From Erythrobacter donghaensis (GTDB lineage Bacteria; Pseudomonadota; Alphaproteobacteria; Sphingomonadales; Sphingomonadaceae): DNA of 64,000 nt. The stretch covers positions 62,001-126,000 of the forward strand of contig NZ_MUYG01000009.1 in NCBI RefSeq assembly GCF_002155425.1, in the 5' to 3' direction. Both the position numbers and the translations under genes were made by a program. The notes beneath the pieces are model-generated. The model saw nothing but the letters and a program-made list of their open reading frames with translations. It had not been told where the DNA came from and did not search any database. Every line of letters starts with the position of its first letter. The stretch's first letter is position 1. Below are positions 47,918 to 54,133 of the stretch, one piece after another.

Positions 47918-48835
47918 TTAGGGGAGGCGGCGCACGCGGTAGCCCTGCGCTTCGAGCAGCGCGACCAGCCCCTCGGGTCCGACAAGGTGCGCGGTGCCTA
48001 CCGCGATCAGCGGGCGGGGCTGCTGGCCAAGCAGCGGGACGAGCGCATTGGCCCAGCGCTGGTTGCGGCCCGTGAGCAGCGGCTCGCGCAGTGCGGGGTC
48101 GGCGAGGAAGCCTTCGCGGGTGGCCTGTTCGATCGTGTCCGCATCGCCCGCCAGCCAGGCGCGCTGGAGCCGTTCGGGATCGGCGCGCGTCTTGTCGCTC
48201 TCGCGTACCACGGCGGCGAGCATCGCGCGCTGCTGCGTTTCGGGGAGACGGTCGAACAGTGAAAGCTGACCGCGCGCGCCCTCCAGCTCGCGCACGGGGC
48301 GGCCCGCGAAATCGCGCAGCACCGCGCGGTCGACGCCATTGGCGGGATCGCCCGTCGCATCGACCTGCGCGAGCGCGATGGCTGCCGCCCAGGTCTCGGT
48401 CGCGCCGAAGCGGGCCGGATCGAGATCGCCGCGCGCCATCAGCTTCGCGAGCGGGTCGGCCAGATCGGACGGAACGCGCGCGGCCAGCGGCGGCAGGCCG
48501 GGGGTCGCGGAAAGCTCGGCGTAGGTGCGCGAAAGCGCCGCGCTGTCATCCAGCGCGGCGATCTCGACCACCAGCAGATCGGCCTCGGAGACGGCCTGCG
48601 TTATGGCGGGCGTGCGCCAGCGGGTGCCTTCCGGAAGGGCGTGGATCGTGCCAAGCATCCAGCCCTCTACAGTGCCATCGGCCGAGGCGATTTCGTAGAG
48701 CAGCGGGTTCGGCGGGTCGTCGGGCGGAGGCTCTCGGCACCCGGCCAGCAGGGCGAGGAGCAGCGCGGCGAGCAGCAGCAGCGTGACCTGCACGCCGCTG
48801 CGCTGCGTCTGCGCCGTTCCTTCCCGTACCGACAT
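47918..48835 (-). CDS. TraB/GumN family lipoprotein (paralogue 1)
   Basis: A 305-residue putative metalloprotease. The N-terminus has a lipoprotein signal (LLLLAALLLALLAGC, lipobox LAGC). TraB/GumN motifs: LGTIHALPEGTRWRTP (GTxH motif), VVEIAALDD, GVDRAVLRDFAG, RNQRWANAL and a C-terminal VGTAHLVGPEGLV. The family includes Tiki and PrgY; catalytic His/Glu residues are retained. The ATG at 48835 follows GAGG; the frame could start at GTG 48844. It is 24 bases from the next gumN gene in the same operon. Confidence 0.87.
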   Translation of the reverse strand: MSVREGTAQTQRSGVQVTLLLLAALLLALLAGCREPPPDDPPNPLLYEIASADGTVEGWMLGTIHALPEGTRWRTPAITQAVSEADLLVVEIAALDDSAALSRTYAELSATPGLPPLAARVPSDLADPLAKLMARGDLDPARFGATETWAAAIALAQVDATGDPANGVDRAVLRDFAGRPVRELEGARGQLSLFDRLPETQQRAMLAAVVRESDKTRADPERLQRAWLAGDADTIEQATREGFLADPALREPLLTGRNQRWANALVPLLGQQPRPLIAVGTAHLVGPEGLVALLEAQGYRVRRLP

Positions 48836-48859
48836 GATCCTCACCCGCCGCGTGCCAGC

Positions 48860-49786
48860 TTACTGGACGCGGGTGACGGTGATGCCCTTTTGCGCGAGGA
48901 AATCCTGCACGCTCTTTGGCCCGCCCAGGTGGCCTGCGCCCACCGCGATGAACACCGTGCCGGGCTGATCCATCCGCGCGCCGATCCACTCGGCCCAGGC
49001 AGCGTTGCGATCAAACAGGATCAGATCGCTGATATTCGCCTCGCTCATGTCATCATTGAGCAGCGCGGCGAGTTCATCGACCTTGCCCATCCGCCAGTTT
49101 TCGACCATCGCGGGCAGGGCGGTTTCGATCTCGTCCAGACCCTCGACGGTGGTCATCAGCAGCCTGACCTGATCCTCGTTGGACAGCGAGGCGAAAAAGC
49201 CGAACTGCTGGTCGAGCGTTTCCAGCCCGATCCGCTCCTTGTCCTTGGTGCGTTCGGTGATCACGCTTTCGACCCCGCTCTCGGCGCCAAAGCCCATCTG
49301 GCCAAACTTGGCGACGGTGAGGTTGATGAACACGAACCACGGACGCAGCCGATCGAGCACCGCGGGCGACATGCCATTGGCGGCAAGCTGCGGTTCAAGC
49401 TCGGCCACCACCTCGGCAAGCTTGGCGTTCTGCTCGGGCGTCAGCAGGCCGGAAAGCGACTGATCGGGGGCAAGCAGGCCATGCTTGACCACCGCGGCCT
49501 GAATGTTGGCGATGTCTTCGGATTCGGGGCCCAGTTCCTTCACCACCAGATCGGCCGAATCCATCGCCTCGGCCACCGGCGGGGTCAGCCACTCGACGTC
49601 CTTGGGCAGGAAGTGGAAGGTGCCGAACAGGTAGATCGTGGTATCCTCGTCTGCGACCTTCCACAGGCCCGGCGTGGCGGGCGTGGTCGTGGCGACAGGC
49701 TCGGCATGATGGTCGGCCAGCGCCGGGGTGGCGGCCAGCAGCGCGAGCGGGGCGGCGGCGAGGGCAAGCAGCGAGGCAAGTTTCAT
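48860..49786 (-). CDS. TraB/GumN family exported protein (paralogue 2)
   Basis: A 308-residue protein with a Sec signal peptide (LASLLALAAAPLALLAATPALA). GumN/TraB motifs: LFGTFHFLPKDVEWLTP, VVKELGPE, ESGVESVI, RNAAWAEWIGARM and VGAGHLGGPKSVQDFL. It parallels the other two paralogues closely at the GTxH and GxxHL positions. It lies 53 bases after the membrane-protein block, likely in the same transcript. Confidence 0.9.
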   Translation of the reverse strand: MKLASLLALAAAPLALLAATPALADHHAEPVATTTPATPGLWKVADEDTTIYLFGTFHFLPKDVEWLTPPVAEAMDSADLVVKELGPESEDIANIQAAVVKHGLLAPDQSLSGLLTPEQNAKLAEVVAELEPQLAANGMSPAVLDRLRPWFVFINLTVAKFGQMGFGAESGVESVITERTKDKERIGLETLDQQFGFFASLSNEDQVRLLMTTVEGLDEIETALPAMVENWRMGKVDELAALLNDDMSEANISDLILFDRNAAWAEWIGARMDQPGTVFIAVGAGHLGGPKSVQDFLAQKGITVTRVQ

Positions 49787-49839
49787 CGAATGGTCCTTTC
49801 GGAGGAGTGGGTAGGGGGGCATTGAAACAAGGCCACCGG

Positions 49840-50295
49840 TCAGATTTTCCAGCGGGCATAGAGGAACGAGGCCAGCATCGCGACATAGGCGATGGCAAAG
49901 ACCCCGAAGGCGTGGGGCGGCGGCACGAACCCTCCGGCATAAAGCGCCGCCCAGACCGGAAAGCCCGCGGTCACGGCGAAGAAGCCACCGGTGAACGCGA
50001 CCAGCGAAACCTCGCGCTGGTAATCGTCGGCCTTCCTCATGTTCTGGATCGGCACGATCAGGAAGACGGTTATCGAGAGAGCGGCGATCAGCACGGCCAG
50101 CGCAGGCGACAGCTTCAACTTGTTCCAATCGCCCAGGAGCAGGTTGCCATCGCCCTGGTCGAAATAGCCGGTCAGGAACCCGATTCCTCCCGCCAACGCG
50201 GCTGCGGCAAACATGGTGATGACCTGAACGCGCTGACGTTGGCGGAGACGGGCCTCGCCGGGGCCGGGGTCAGAGCCGAGGTTCGGGTCGGTCAT
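49840..50295 (-). CDS. Small four-helix membrane protein (member 5 of a paralogous set)
   Basis: A 151-residue protein. A cytosolic Pro/Gly/Asp front (NLGSDPGPGEARL) precedes four membrane helices. After the second helix comes the motif RKADDYQREVSLVAFTGG, with an acidic pair, an aromatic residue and an amphipathic helix. The same helix-helix-D(E/D)Y-helix-helix layout recurs in the neighbouring proteins. Its ATG overlaps the previous stop by four bases. Function unknown; paralogous relation is inferred. Confidence 0.7.
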   Translation of the reverse strand: MTDPNLGSDPGPGEARLRQRQRVQVITMFAAAALAGGIGFLTGYFDQGDGNLLLGDWNKLKLSPALAVLIAALSITVFLIVPIQNMRKADDYQREVSLVAFTGGFFAVTAGFPVWAALYAGGFVPPPHAFGVFAIAYVAMLASFLYARWKI

Positions 50296-50957
50296 GTCAG
50301 CCTCCGGGCCATGTTGGCGATGAAGGATGCGATCAGCACCCCGACGAACAGGATCATCACATCGGGCTGGGGCAGCACGCCGCCGCGATAGCCGAGCCAC
50401 CATGCGGGGGCGACCGTGGTGAAGAAGCGGAAACCGGCGCTCTCGCCGAAAATCAGCAAGTCACGCTCGACCTCGTCCATATTGCGGCGCGTGATGGCGG
50501 CAAGCAGCGGCATGCTGACCAGCCACAGCAGCGCTGCGCCCACAGCAAGATCGGTCGGCAGCGGGCCGTTGGAATAGAGATCGTTCGCGAGACCTCCGCC
50601 CGAGGGCCGGGCGAAGACCAGCGTGATCAGCATGGAAAAGGCAATCAGCGCGACCATTGCCCAGCCATAGCGCCGGGTGCGCGGGGTGACGGGGTCGCCC
50701 TGCGTGAGGGTGGGCCACTTGCGGAAGGTCGCGACCACGATTGCGCCGCCGATGAGTCCTACGATCATCGCACCCGCCACATCGATTGATGCGATATTGT
50801 CCTTGGCCACCTGTATCGCGCCCCACGCCATGCCGCTCAGCAGCAGCGTCAGGCCTGCCGCGAACGACAGCACCGGGACAGCAAACCGGCGAAACCGCGC
50901 GCCAAGGCTGTTGTCATCGTCTTCGGCCATGCCGGGGATATCGTCAGAGTTCGTCAT
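50292..50957 (-). CDS. Six-helix membrane protein (member 4 of a paralogous set)
   Basis: A 221-residue protein with about six membrane helices, larger than its neighbours. The motif RRNMDEVERDLLIFGES (about residues 158-174) follows the fourth helix, then VAPAWWLGYRGG and a final helix, matching the set's layout. Its start overlaps the XRE gene by 14 bases; an internal ATG (MAEDDD, 50930) would remove the overlap. No known family recognised. Confidence 0.7.
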   Translation of the reverse strand: MTNSDDIPGMAEDDDNSLGARFRRFAVPVLSFAAGLTLLLSGMAWGAIQVAKDNIASIDVAGAMIVGLIGGAIVVATFRKWPTLTQGDPVTPRTRRYGWAMVALIAFSMLITLVFARPSGGGLANDLYSNGPLPTDLAVGAALLWLVSMPLLAAITRRNMDEVERDLLIFGESAGFRFFTTVAPAWWLGYRGGVLPQPDVMILFVGVLIASFIANMARRLT

Positions 50958-51138
50958 CGAAAATCTCCTCGATACGCATGTCGAACAGGCGCGCGATGCG
51001 GAAGGCGAGCGGGAGCGAGGGGTCGTGCTTGCCGGTCTCGATGGCGTTCACCGCCTGACGCGACACGTCGAGCCGCCCGGCCAGCTCAGCCTGGCTCCAG
51101 TCGCGTTCGGCGCGCAGGACTTTGAGGCGGTTTTTCAT
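50944..51138 (-). CDS. Small XRE-family HTH regulator
   Basis: A 64-residue single-domain repressor-like protein: LRAERDWSQAELAGRLDVSRQAVNAIETGKHDPSLPLAFRI is a canonical XRE/Cro helix-turn-helix (residues about 8-48), ending IEEIFDDEL. Such tiny regulators are frequently encoded with small DxxE-type membrane proteins of unknown function. The ATG overlaps the stop of membrane protein 3 by four bases (ATGA). Autoregulation of the operon is a reasonable inference. Confidence 0.92.
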   Translation of the reverse strand: MKNRLKVLRAERDWSQAELAGRLDVSRQAVNAIETGKHDPSLPLAFRIARLFDMRIEEIFDDEL

Positions 51139-51599
51139 TCGTCTTCGCTCGCGTCCCAGCGATCGCGCAGCCATTGGAAGGCGAAACCGGCGTAAAAGGC
51201 GAGGGTGAGCGCGATGGCGACCGTCAGGCCGTTCATGGCGAGCGCCTCGATCCCGACTGCCTCGCGCTGTGCGCCGCCGCCGCCAAAGGCATAACCAAGC
51301 TCGTTGGCTACGTCTCCGGACGCAAGGATGAACAGCGCGACGAGATAGACACCCAGCACCGCGCTCATCCAGCGCAACCCGGTCTTCAGAAGGCTTTGGA
51401 GGTATTCGTCCGCGTGGGTGCCGAAGGCGACGCTCAAGGGGCCGCCAGCCATCGATCCGAAAGCCACTGCGCTCAGCATGTTGTCCATGCCGATGAACAG
51501 ATTGGCAAAGCTGAACACGGCACCGCCCACGCTGAACCAGAGCACCACGAACTGGTTGCTGCGCTCACGCTCGCCGACTGTATTGGGCTTGTAGGGCAT
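51135..51599 (-). CDS. Small four-helix membrane protein (member 3 of a paralogous set)
   Basis: A 154-residue protein with four membrane helices. A HADEYLQSLLKTGLRW motif (about residues 62-77) follows helix 2, matching the DEY motif of its neighbours. The C-terminus ends in charged DRWDASEDE. The ATG overlaps the previous stop (TAATG) by one base. The role is unknown; membrane sensor or regulator partner of the XRE protein is a hypothesis. Confidence 0.72.
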   Translation of the reverse strand: MPYKPNTVGERERSNQFVVLWFSVGGAVFSFANLFIGMDNMLSAVAFGSMAGGPLSVAFGTHADEYLQSLLKTGLRWMSAVLGVYLVALFILASGDVANELGYAFGGGGAQREAVGIEALAMNGLTVAIALTLAFYAGFAFQWLRDRWDASEDE

Positions 51600-51976
51600 T
51601 ACATGTCCCCCAGCAGGCGCTTGACGAACAGGCCGATGTAGAAGGCGGCGATCGCCAGTATGGGCACCACGGTAGCGGGAATGTTATGGCCGTCTTCGGT
51701 GCCGGTCACGCCGTCGAAAAAGCCTTCGGCAGCGGGCAGGCCGAGGAAGGTCAGCAACATGGTCCCGAAGGCGACGCTTGCCCCGGCATTCCACAGCCCC
51801 TCGGTGTATTCGTCCGCGCGGCGAGTCGCGAGCATGACGTAACTGCTGCCGATCACGAGCAGAAGCAGGGGCACGGCAACCACCAGCGGCGCGTCCGCAA
51901 CCGCAGCGACGGCGGTGAGAATGAGCGCACCAAGCCCGGTCCAGCTGGCGGCCATGAAGATGCTGGCCTTGTTCAC
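51599..51976 (-). CDS. Small four-helix membrane protein (member 2 of a paralogous set)
   Basis: A 125-residue protein from the GTG at 51976, which overlaps the upstream stop as GTGA. Four hydrophobic helices with RRADEYTEGLWNAGAS after helix 2 (about residues 52-67). The longer in-frame extension to 52096 would overlap the previous gene by over 100 bases and is rejected. No family recognised beyond similarity to its neighbours. Confidence 0.72.
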   Translation of the reverse strand: MNKASIFMAASWTGLGALILTAVAAVADAPLVVAVPLLLLVIGSSYVMLATRRADEYTEGLWNAGASVAFGTMLLTFLGLPAAEGFFDGVTGTEDGHNIPATVVPILAIAAFYIGLFVKRLLGDM

Positions 51977-52470
51977 CGCGAATCTCTCCAGCGAAGGAAT
52001 TGGAAGATCACCACGAAGGCCATCATGTAGCCGATCCACACGACAATAAGGGCATCGCCCCATTGAACCTTGTCGGACAGCCAGCGCAGAGACCAATGCA
52101 CTTGCTCAGCCTTCGTGTCGCCGGTCGCGAAATACCAGACCCAAGCGAGAATAAAGATTATGAGGGGCAATGCAGCGGTGGCGTAGGCCAAAACCACCGA
52201 CGTTCGGCGCCACAATTGCTCAGCATATTCGTCGCGCATAAACTTCGCGCAAATCAGAAACATCGGCACGAAGAACATCAGCACCACCAATGGCGTGTAG
52301 TAAATCACCGTGACCAGGGGCGACATGTGGTCCTGAGGATCGAACCCCGTCAGACGGTCGACGAGCAATTCCAGCAGGCTGTAGACCAATGCCGCAAGCG
52401 AGGCATTCATCAGCACGAAATAGGCGCGGTAGCGCCGCTGCTTGTCTGGCTTGCCGTCGGAAATGGTCAT
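51973..52470 (-). CDS. Small four-helix membrane protein (member 1 of a paralogous set)
   Basis: A 165-residue protein, first gene of the operon. Four membrane helices. MRDEYAEQLWRRTSVV (about residues 78-93) follows helix 2, the clearest form of the motif shared by five proteins here. Between helices 3 and 4 lies a polar loop with DTKAEQVHWSLRWLSDK. Codon use is less GC-rich than in surrounding housekeeping genes. A TTATAAAGG block 20 bases upstream could be its -10. Confidence 0.72.
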   Translation of the reverse strand: MTISDGKPDKQRRYRAYFVLMNASLAALVYSLLELLVDRLTGFDPQDHMSPLVTVIYYTPLVVLMFFVPMFLICAKFMRDEYAEQLWRRTSVVLAYATAALPLIIFILAWVWYFATGDTKAEQVHWSLRWLSDKVQWGDALIVVWIGYMMAFVVIFQFLRWRDSR

Positions 52471-52542: not shown

Positions 52543-52920
52543 TCACGCGCCCGGAGTGGCGGCGGGCGATGCGGGGGTGTTTTCGGCGAAGCGCATCCGG
52601 TCGGCCCGCGCATTGGCGATGGCGACGCGGATCTCCGGCGCGGCGGCTGCCAGCGCGCTCTCGCGGCATTCGCGTTCGAGCCGCAGCGAGGCGCTGTCGC
52701 GGCCTCCGTTGGCGCACATCTGGCGCGCCTTGGTGCGCACGCGCTCATCGAGCCGGGCGACACCATCGCGGGTGGTGAGGTCGAGATCGTCATGGGCGAC
52801 GGGGGCCTCGAATTCGGTCGCGTTGACAGGGGCGGCGTTGACGCTGGCGGGGGCTGCCATCAGGGCGATGGCGACAGCAAGGGGGGCACCGAACGAAGCA
52901 AGCGGGGTACGGAAGGACAT
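52543..52920 (-). CDS. UrcA family exported protein
   Basis: A 125-residue protein with a Sec signal (LAVAIALMAAPASVNA). The mature part has the UrcA pattern: VAHDDLDLTTRDGVARLDERVRTKARQMC, then a second cysteine in ERECRESAL. UrcA proteins are small, exported, sphingomonad/caulobacter-type proteins of unknown role, first noted for uracil-responsive expression in Caulobacter, I believe. A long palindrome-rich promoter lies directly upstream. Confidence 0.85.
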   Translation of the reverse strand: MSFRTPLASFGAPLAVAIALMAAPASVNAAPVNATEFEAPVAHDDLDLTTRDGVARLDERVRTKARQMCANGGRDSASLRLERECRESALAAAAPEIRVAIANARADRMRFAENTPASPAATPGA

Positions 52921-52973
52921 GGCGGATCTCCTGGGGAGGAAGAGTTGGTTGTGTCAGTGCAACCTTCCGGAAT

Positions 52974-53040
52974 GTCAGGTTGCCCTGACTTTATGTCGTG
53001 ATTCGCTGACGATGTCAAGATAACCTGACTTGAAGTCAGG
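52974..53040 (-). promoter_or_regulatory. urcA promoter flanked by two GTCAGG palindromes
   Basis: On the minus strand: CCTGACTT-C-AAGTCAGG (53024-53040), then TTGACA (-35, 53013-53018), a 17-base spacer, CATAAA (-10, 52990-52995), then GTCAGG-GCAA-CCTGAC (52974-52989). Both palindromes contain the same GTCAGG/CCTGAC half-sites, one just upstream of the -35 and one over the start site. Looks like a two-operator repression system; the regulator is not known. Confidence 0.65.
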
Positions 53041-53065: not shown

Positions 53066-54133
53066 CTATTGAATTCGCTCGACGATAAACCCCTTCTCTC
53101 GCAGCATCAGAATCACCGAATCGGGCCCCTCCATATGCCCGGCCCCGACCGCCAGCAGCAGGTTGCCGGGCCGCGCCATCCGATTCTCCAGCCACTCGGT
53201 CCAGGCGCGGTTGCGGTCGACCAGCAGCACTTCGTAGAAGGCACGCCCAAAGGGGTCTTCGAGCATTTCGGTCACCGCCGCGTCACCCAACTTGCCCTGC
53301 GCCCAGTTGTGCTCGGTCTCCCAATCATTGGCGCCCGGTTCGACCAGAGCGCAGCCGTCCCACCCGTCAAACCCCTCGTCGATCATCCCGATCAGCTGCG
53401 CCTCGTCGATCCCGAATAGGTTTTCGAGCACCTGGATCGGATCCTCGATCGCCGAAATGGGCCGGCCGCTGGCCTTGAACTCGGCTTCGATCACGGTCTC
53501 CACCCCGAAATCGCGCAGCGATCCCTCGGCCGTGGCGGTGGCTTCGGCGATGGCGAACATCGCGATCATCGGCGGGGCATATTCGATCTGATCGGCGGAA
53601 AGACCCGCCAGCTGCAGCATCCGCTTGAGCTTGGGCCGGTTGCGCTCGGACAGGCGCGCGGACAGCGGCTCGGCCGGGCGGTAGCGCATCATCAGGGTCA
53701 TGAATCGCAGCGCCTCGGGGGTCAGTTCGGCCTCGGCCTCACCCTCTGCCTTGTCGTCGCGGGATTCGAACACGACCTCCTGCGCCTCGCCCATCACCCG
53801 GTCGAACAGCGGGGTGCGCCAGCGGAAGCCTTCGGGCAAGACGTGGAAGGTGCCGAAGATGGTGATCGTGGTGTCGTCGTCGGCAAGGCGCCACATCGCC
53901 GGGGCGGGCTCGTAGTCCTGCCGCGGCGCAGCGCGCGCCGGCCGTGCGGGCAGAACCGCGCCGCCCCCGTGGCGGAACCCGTGCCGCCCGGTGCAGCGCA
54001 GCGGGACCGGCTCGGCGGGCAGGGCCGGCTCAGCCGCTACCTCTTCCGCCACCGAGGGCTCCTGCGCGGCGAGCGGCGCCAGTGCCAGCACGAAAGCCAG
54101 AGCAAGGCCTGTGGAATGACGAAAACGCTTCAT
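53066..54133 (-). CDS. TraB/GumN family exported protein (paralogue 3)
   Basis: A 355-residue protein. A Sec signal (STGLALAFVLALAPLAAQ) is followed by a Pro/Ala/Glu linker and an Arg/Gly stretch (about residues 36-75). The GumN/TraB domain then has FGTFHVLPEGFRWRTP, VVFESRDD, DFGVETVIEAEF, LLVDRNRAWTEWL and AVGAGHMEGPDSVI. A Cys in DGWDGCALVEPG is extra compared with paralogue 2. It is separated from the gumN-membrane operon by urcA. Confidence 0.9.
   Translation of the reverse strand: MKRFRHSTGLALAFVLALAPLAAQEPSVAEEVAAEPALPAEPVPLRCTGRHGFRHGGGAVLPARPARAAPRQDYEPAPAMWRLADDDTTITIFGTFHVLPEGFRWRTPLFDRVMGEAQEVVFESRDDKAEGEAEAELTPEALRFMTLMMRYRPAEPLSARLSERNRPKLKRMLQLAGLSADQIEYAPPMIAMFAIAEATATAEGSLRDFGVETVIEAEFKASGRPISAIEDPIQVLENLFGIDEAQLIGMIDEGFDGWDGCALVEPGANDWETEHNWAQGKLGDAAVTEMLEDPFGRAFYEVLLVDRNRAWTEWLENRMARPGNLLLAVGAGHMEGPDSVILMLREKGFIVERIQ

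Follow-up and report, generated by a model that had tools for sequence, protein, structure and literature searches.

A CylR2-like regulator gene within a variable array of membrane protein genes in Sphingomonadales: a candidate membrane-gated autorepressor operon

In the SdpR/SdpI system of Bacillus subtilis, a small autorepressor of another repressor family is believed to be retained at the membrane through a partner with several transmembrane (TM) helices, and in the PrgX/PrgY system of pCF10 a helix-turn-helix (HTH) regulator that carries a peptide-binding domain shares one peptide-signalling locus with a TraB-family protein. The locus described here lies in a window of 64,000 nucleotides from Erythrobacter donghaensis (the whole stretch of DNA that was analysed) and consists of a 64-amino-acid (aa) XRE regulator gene, which encodes the HTH domain alone, in contrast to PrgX, five genes for small membrane proteins (M1 to M5) that share an acidic DE or DD motif, and two TraB/PrgY/GumN family genes (T1 and T2), all behind an operator/promoter-like element. 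Its coordinates are collected in Table 1.

The CylR1/CylR2 system of Enterococcus faecalis is alike in two respects. Its 66-aa XRE repressor CylR2 is homologous to the present regulator over residues 3-61, and a suspected multi-TM partner is encoded alongside; according to the excerpted text of PMC3709268, CylR2 binds to the cytolysin promoter and acts as its repressor, and induction requires CylR1, suspected of being a three-TM protein, in a way that is not understood. The two differ in that CylR1 is one gene with three predicted TM helices, whereas one to eight M genes with a four-helix core are found here, together with tandem inverted repeats, linkage to TraB and often UrcA genes, and no lantibiotic genes in the block. 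The LytTR systems HdrRM and BrsRM likewise combine a regulator and a membrane protein in one autoregulated operon, but they use a LytTR regulator, direct repeats upstream of the -35 box and positive feedback, as given in the excerpt of PMC6193735; the regulator here belongs to HTH_3, and the inverted repeats overlap the -35-like and -10-like boxes.

By analogy with CylR1/CylR2, the block is proposed to be a membrane-gated autorepressor operon in which one repressor serves several possible receptors, a reading that we put at about an even chance of being correct. The XRE protein, probably as dimers, would bind the inverted repeats over the -35 box, the -10 box and the expected transcription start and keep the operon low, while the M proteins would present their acidic DE loop at the cytoplasmic face of the membrane. 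An envelope change or a ligand would let the DE loop contact or release XRE, and the operon would be turned on. More M proteins and exported TraB proteins would then be produced, the latter acting on a signal or on damage in the periplasm, and added M proteins would let one repressor answer several inputs. The sequences show the genes, their synteny, the repeats and how these fit a promoter, the DE motif and the near-invariance of XRE; the remainder of the scheme is a proposal.

The operator/promoter-like element lies upstream of UrcA, or upstream of the first M gene or of XRE where UrcA is absent. Its repeat is (A/T)GTCA-N8-TGAC(A/T), with half-sites GTCA/TGAC, and two outer copies 40 bp apart enclose a weaker copy in the middle. 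The repeats overlap a promoter-like pair (TTGACA-N17-CATAAA), its spacer and the expected start, and the element is a predicted operator. It was conserved in 16 rows, comprising the window and 15 of 17 relatives' loci (L016 to L032), with a consensus of roughly AGTCAGGT....TTGACAT.GTCAGCGAATC.CGACATA.AGTCAGG...CCTGACA; the pattern used missed L019 and L032, the latter being an opposite-strand match without the block. TTGACA was present in 16/16 rows and was followed at a spacing of 17 by CATAAA in 8, CATATA in 7 and CATATG in 1, the rows having been selected by a pattern containing CAT.

The element pattern had a single match in the window. A two-repeat pattern had one perfect match in the genome from which the window was taken, for which reason the regulator looks local, and one further match with two mismatches. 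Counts of the strict repeat were made in 80 loci from named genomes, taken as the best 80 of 579 relatives in a scan by XRE (the scope of all 80-locus counts given below). In 75 of the loci it was present within the 2.7 kb before XRE (128 matches in all), and it was absent from all other bases of the 850,624 read, while each of 23 scrambled half-sites used as a control gave 0 to 3 upstream matches. Neighbouring strict repeats (53 pairs) were spaced by 40 bp in 46 pairs and by 21 bp in 7. In one of the 80 loci, that of Erythrobacter sp. NAP1 (L100), the strict repeat was not found.

The regulator is a one-domain XRE protein of about 65 aa with homology to CylR2 (1utx and 2xiu, E 4.5e-12). It also matched 9k3w, labelled 'PbsX family', at E 8.9e-26, 9k3w and CylR2 being its solved homologues, and within PADLOC-DB 2.0.0 it was matched by HTH models only. 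Its identity to the window copy was 89 to 98% in 16 relatives. Mean identities to the window, calculated over the relatives holding each gene (16 loci at most), were 93% for XRE, 86% for Pth, 81% for L25, 64% for UrcA, 60% for T2, 54% for M5, 53% for T0 (a third TraB family gene), 47% for M2, 45% for T1, 42% for M1, 33% for M3 and 29% for M4. The near-invariance of XRE against M1 to M4 (29-47%) and M5 was counted in favour of the autorepressor. Across 79 XRE sequences from the named loci, conservation was at least 95% at 43 of 62 positions, and at 32 of these no single codon reached 80%; since codons vary at conserved positions, selection acts on the protein.

No consistent match to M1-M5 was obtained in Pfam, NCBIfam, PADLOC or PHROGs, and none of the five window proteins scored above the cut-off of any family. 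The sequences were examined as five alignments (A1 to A5), which hold 55 of 57 M proteins (the M2 proteins of L021 and L025, both with the motif, were left out for uncertain starts), and as two larger sets: A7 (42 sequences), comprising 39 of 40 upstream proteins and window proteins, and A8 (51 sequences), comprising 49 of 89 downstream proteins and window proteins. Two candidate families, DUF5671 (3/51 A8 members, best E 4.4e-4) and DUF3169 (2/51, best 0.005), were rejected as weak, single M members reaching about 1e-4 to unrelated families. The initial annotation had named DUF2178 (PF09946), a family of small membrane proteins, as possible kin. This was not borne out: no A7 or A8 member matched it at E <= 0.01, nor did M1-M5 of the window at E <= 1, and it was found in 0 of 31 relatives' genomes, compared with 2 of 14 control genomes. 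In the PDB, no credible relative was found by sequence (best 0.0049 and 0.015).

The view that the five proteins are related to one another was upheld, within limits. Of the ten possible pairs of profiles, six were compared, and four matched: A2-A3 (97%, E 1.8e-11), A4-A5 (96%, 1.5e-9), A1-A2 (92%, 5.4e-7) and A2-A4 (79%, 1.6e-5), with M5 aligning to the C-terminal part of M4 in the A4-A5 comparison. The pairs A1-A3 (3%) and A2-A5 (5%) failed. Iterated searches run with decoys recruited 118-132 of 134 candidates and 0/44 real membrane decoys (73 outside membrane open reading frames (ORFs), of which 23 were dropped beforehand as M-like and 44 were left after removal of duplicates). The seeds M1, M2 and M3 listed all five window proteins and the seeds M4 and M5 omitted M3; with decoys and filters removed, all five were joined from every seed. 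M sequences shuffled within 10-residue windows were also recruited (E down to 1e-21), and the E-values of the iterated searches therefore overstate kinship.

All five DE/DD motifs were present as originally quoted, and D followed by D or E was found after the second core helix in 55/55 members of A1-A5, which had been selected by homology. In A7, lysine and arginine per residue amounted to 0.18 in the N-terminus, 0.14 in the DE loop and 0.29 in the C-terminus, compared with 0.03 and 0.06 in the two remaining loops; because of this enrichment the DE loop probably faces the cytoplasm. An AlphaFold2 model of M2 had four helices (predicted local distance difference test (pLDDT) 95, predicted template modelling score (pTM) 0.86), the DE pair capping helix 3, and the model of M4 was less sure (pLDDT 78.8, pTM 0.65). 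The amphipathic helix that had been read as a separate element after the motif is, in the M2 model, the first part of the long helix 3 (residues 56-91). The best VIA match of M2 was a designed helical bundle (Z 7.2).

As bait for related loci, XRE was better than the M proteins. A search with M3 alone found no relative, and among 100 related genomes M3 matched 12 and M2 matched 15, all belonging to a single genus; the idea of a genus-only family was dropped once the XRE search had shown that M diverges fast. With an XRE profile (A6), matches at E <= 1e-28 were obtained in 216 of 397 family genomes, partly to paralogues, and 19 of 20 regions drawn from such genomes (18 genera) had XRE followed by TraB downstream, L084 being the remaining one. 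Sixteen of the 17 relatives' loci (L016 to L031) had the order divergent glyQS, [T0], [UrcA], variable M genes, XRE, [M4 or M5 type], T1, T2, L25 and pth, where brackets mark genes that are not always present, which agrees with the proposal that the block would be conserved in relatives. By title, the 80 named loci were from 79 Sphingomonadales, with genera including Erythrobacter, Porphyrobacter, Sphingomonas, Blastomonas, Qipengyuania and Altererythrobacter, and one Opitutia metagenome-assembled genome. The block stood between glyQS and rplY-pth in most of them: glyQ was found upstream in 72, L25 downstream in 69 and at least one TraB gene after XRE in 76, several of the loci being cut by contig ends. 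The locus sets L016-L032, L070-L089 and L090-L169 share genomes, and their counts are not independent.

Genes in the fetched loci were called by a home-made caller and TM stretches were counted by a simple hydropathy window. Among the 80 loci, 117 M ORFs were recognised by homology and 12 by TM count and motif, the motif statistics being judged on A1-A5 only. Upstream of XRE there was no M gene in 54 loci, one in 18, two in 5, and three, four and five in one locus each; downstream there was one in 63, two in 10, three in 2 and none in 5, a count that misses genes in at least four loci (L104, L105, L111 and L127), where a further M-like ORF follows XRE. The commonest form is therefore operator-XRE-M-TraB, with a core of XRE, one membrane protein and TraB, and the proposal that the window's array expanded from a smaller unit fits the 54 loci lacking an upstream membrane gene. 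Membrane genes have been added on both sides of XRE, three before and two after in the window and five before and three after in Erythrobacter sp. NAP1, whose array (NZ_CH672390.1, 3392-7668) is the largest seen. The view that TraB had been gained here was not supported: it follows XRE in nearly all of the loci, and outside the family it does so in 6 of the 18 loci where XRE was located. UrcA was not found at its window position in many relatives, and T0 also occurs in some of them.

Several further arrangements were recorded. Proteins of 231 aa with an M4-like start and an M5-like end are encoded in L088 (8182-8877) and in L090 and L091 (5682-6374). A 197-kb plasmid of Sphingomonas parapaucimobilis YK209 (unnamed7, L170) carries the complete block together with glyS, glyQ and the L25 gene, an odd location for housekeeping genes. 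The Opitutia record (L166, NEUZ01000025.1) has an XRE 87% identical to that of the window without the remaining block, by transfer or binning error; L084 also has no syntenic block.

The repeat was also found with XRE away from the usual place, which was likewise counted in favour of the autorepressor. In Sphingomonas sp. 37zxx (L155), XRE-M-TraB occurs with no glyQS or L25 nearby and with two repeats 40 bp apart, and in S. colocasiae (L128) the repeat accompanies a displaced XRE. Four of the 281 plasmid records that matched XRE were inspected. A Qipengyuania citrea plasmid (L171, 2441-5934) has an XRE of 83% identity and a 193-aa DE-motif membrane protein, followed by YjgN family and M48 peptidase genes, and plasmid P3 of Deinococcus gobiensis (L172, 225-2701) has an erythromycin esterase family gene first, then a 144-aa membrane protein and an XRE of 74% identity; the strict repeat lies upstream in both. 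Three more XRE-membrane pairs are present in the window's own genome (L036, L037 and L038, XRE identity 75, 61 and 53%), each with a multi-TM partner containing D[DE], and upstream of L037 there are three CAAGAG/CTCTTG-type inverted repeats, a different site. The repeat site thus seems tied to this XRE subtype, which would presumably bind it. Outside the family, 20 loci were fetched and XRE was located in all except L214 and L217; a D[DE] neighbour with at least three TM stretches adjoined it in 18/18, a weak test in that D[DE] was accepted anywhere in a neighbour of <260 aa with at least three TM stretches, the match in L209 perhaps not lying in the DE loop. This neighbour was mostly just upstream of XRE, with a 4-nt overlap in 8 of 16 loci in which XRE was called, and the 6 far loci with TraB downstream were all of the same class as the window. 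The XRE-membrane pair is thus found again elsewhere in the phylum, and at least two further families of the class share the link to TraB.

In the window the block is on the minus strand in the order T0, UrcA, M1, M2, M3, XRE, M4, M5, T1, T2, and is bounded by the divergent glyQS (from about 54287) and the gene for ribosomal protein L25 (47798-47166). The composition first reported, five membrane proteins, one 64-residue XRE protein and two TraB/GumN proteins with overlaps of 4, 1, 4, 14 and 4 nt from M1 to M5, was exact to the base; relatives show overlaps of 4, 1 and 14 nt as well, which is only suggestive, as some starts were chosen partly by closeness to the preceding stop. The gaps from M5 to T1 and from T1 to T2 are 53 and 15 nt. 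The genes of the proposed eight-gene operon were confirmed and its extent was revised: the transcription unit most likely starts at UrcA, behind the conserved element and one gene before M1, so that it would have nine genes or more, with T0 further upstream. XRE, TraB and UrcA are known families (PF01963 bits 219.6 for T1, 172.8 for T2 and 156.4 for T0, all above the curated cut-off of 26.8). No description of the membrane family, of its link to the operator-like element or of the array was found in the libraries and literature searched, and among open-licence papers none dealt with this operon by title or abstract opening. A terminator-like hairpin of 16 pairs lies directly after the L25 gene (47141-47106, minus strand); the terminator scan gave a total of 5 in the window, not above shuffles (5.2).

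Table 1. Coordinates of the element and of the genes of the block, as positions in the window
Feature	Position	Strand	Remarks
Operator/promoter-like element	52973..53030	-	Inverted repeats overlapping promoter-like pair
Repeat O1	53030-53013	-	
Repeat O2	53011-52994	-	Weaker
Repeat O3	52990-52973	-	
-35-like box TTGACA	53018-53013		Within O1
-10-like box CATAAA	52995-52990		Touches O2 and O3
Degenerate fourth repeat	about 53050-53035		Read by eye
T0, third TraB family gene	53066..54133	-	Just upstream of element; PF01963 E 1.7e-45
UrcA family protein	52543..52920	-	Probable first operon gene; TIGR04433 E 7.3e-19; between element and M1
M1, 165 aa DE-loop membrane protein	51973..52470	-	Motif RDEYAEQLW
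M2, 125 aa DE-loop membrane protein	51599..51976	-	GTG start; motif ADEYTEGLW; predicted four-helix bundle, pLDDT 95
M3, 154 aa DE-loop membrane protein	51135..51599	-	Motif ADEYLQSLL
XRE regulator, 64 aa, CylR2 homologue	50944..51138	-	HTH_3 E 8.6e-15
M4, 221 aa	50292..50957	-	Extra N-terminal helices and DE-loop core (MDEVERDLL)
M5, 151 aa DE-loop membrane protein	49840..50295	-	ADDYQREVS; alignable to C-terminal part of M4
T1, TraB/PrgY/GumN family	48860..49786	-	Probably exported (N-terminal hydrophobic stretch); PF01963 E 8.8e-65
T2, TraB/PrgY/GumN family	47918..48844	-	Probably exported; PF01963 E 1.6e-50; start at 48844 (GTG) or 48835 (ATG)

Several points weigh against a membrane-gated autorepressor. 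The operon may work like CylR1/CylR2, the M proteins being likened to CylR1 by arrangement; the M2 and M4 models had no Foldseek match in the PDB at E <= 0.001 and thus offer no functional hint, and the DE motif might be structural. The -10 box is only CATAAA, and a scan for promoters detected none here. The three paralogous pairs of the same genome are without the strict repeat (that of L038 is one base off), as is an XRE-membrane pair on a Labrenzia plasmid, and outside the family the strict repeat was present in only 4 of 20 loci (L209, L213, L214 and L215). XRE could, moreover, activate instead of repress. It would then be an activator held inactive by the M proteins, with positive feedback on loss of the inhibitor, and the autoregulated LytTR operons, which pair a regulator with a membrane inhibitor, offer a precedent in the excerpt of PMC6193735. 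That excerpt places LytTR sites as direct repeats upstream of -35, however, whereas the inverted repeats here sit on the -35 box, the spacer, the -10 box and the expected start, the position of a repressor, and we regard activation as unlikely.

A possible reading, to which we lean less, is that XRE is a plain homeostatic autoregulator and that the M proteins serve the envelope independently (in immunity, in transport or as partners of TraB) and never contact it. The fast evolution and varying number of M genes, as in effector or immunity arrays, and the regular presence of TraB after XRE would suit it, but M adjoins XRE even where TraB is not near (L128, L173 and 12 of 18 located far loci), and the acidic cytoplasmic loop is kept in every aligned M protein. 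A toxin-antitoxin module, with an XRE antitoxin and membrane toxins, would likewise have a small XRE gene preceded by likely sites for its product and set among overlapping small genes; the fixed position beside glyQ and L25, the presence of up to 8 M genes per XRE and the failure of M to match a known family make this very improbable. No greater weight is given to an anti-phage or envelope defence module, which had been suggested at the outset and for which the varying gene number and the unfamiliar membrane proteins might speak: M1-M5, T1 and T2 matched no PADLOC-DB 2.0.0 model (UrcA and T0 were outside the scan) and no PHROG, and the synteny is that of housekeeping genes, not of a defence island.

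On the membrane-gated autorepressor reading, the block looks like an unstudied membrane-signalling switch of Sphingomonadales. We suggest, tentatively, a class built on one repressor and many receptors, defined by a near-invariant CylR2-like repressor, a tandem operator array, expanding four-helix receptors with a common acidic loop and periplasmic TraB-type enzymes, the minimal pair of which, a CylR2-like XRE with one DE-loop membrane protein, would be a widespread and largely unrecognised unit of transmembrane signalling in bacteria. The bacterial role of TraB/GumN proteins is unclear, and they would gain a regulatory context. If true, the finding would mean transmembrane signalling without a kinase, at a fixed site by glyQS and rplY in many Sphingomonadales and with a predicted operator, and it would suggest why XRE proteins of 64-66 aa adjoin small membrane proteins of unknown function.

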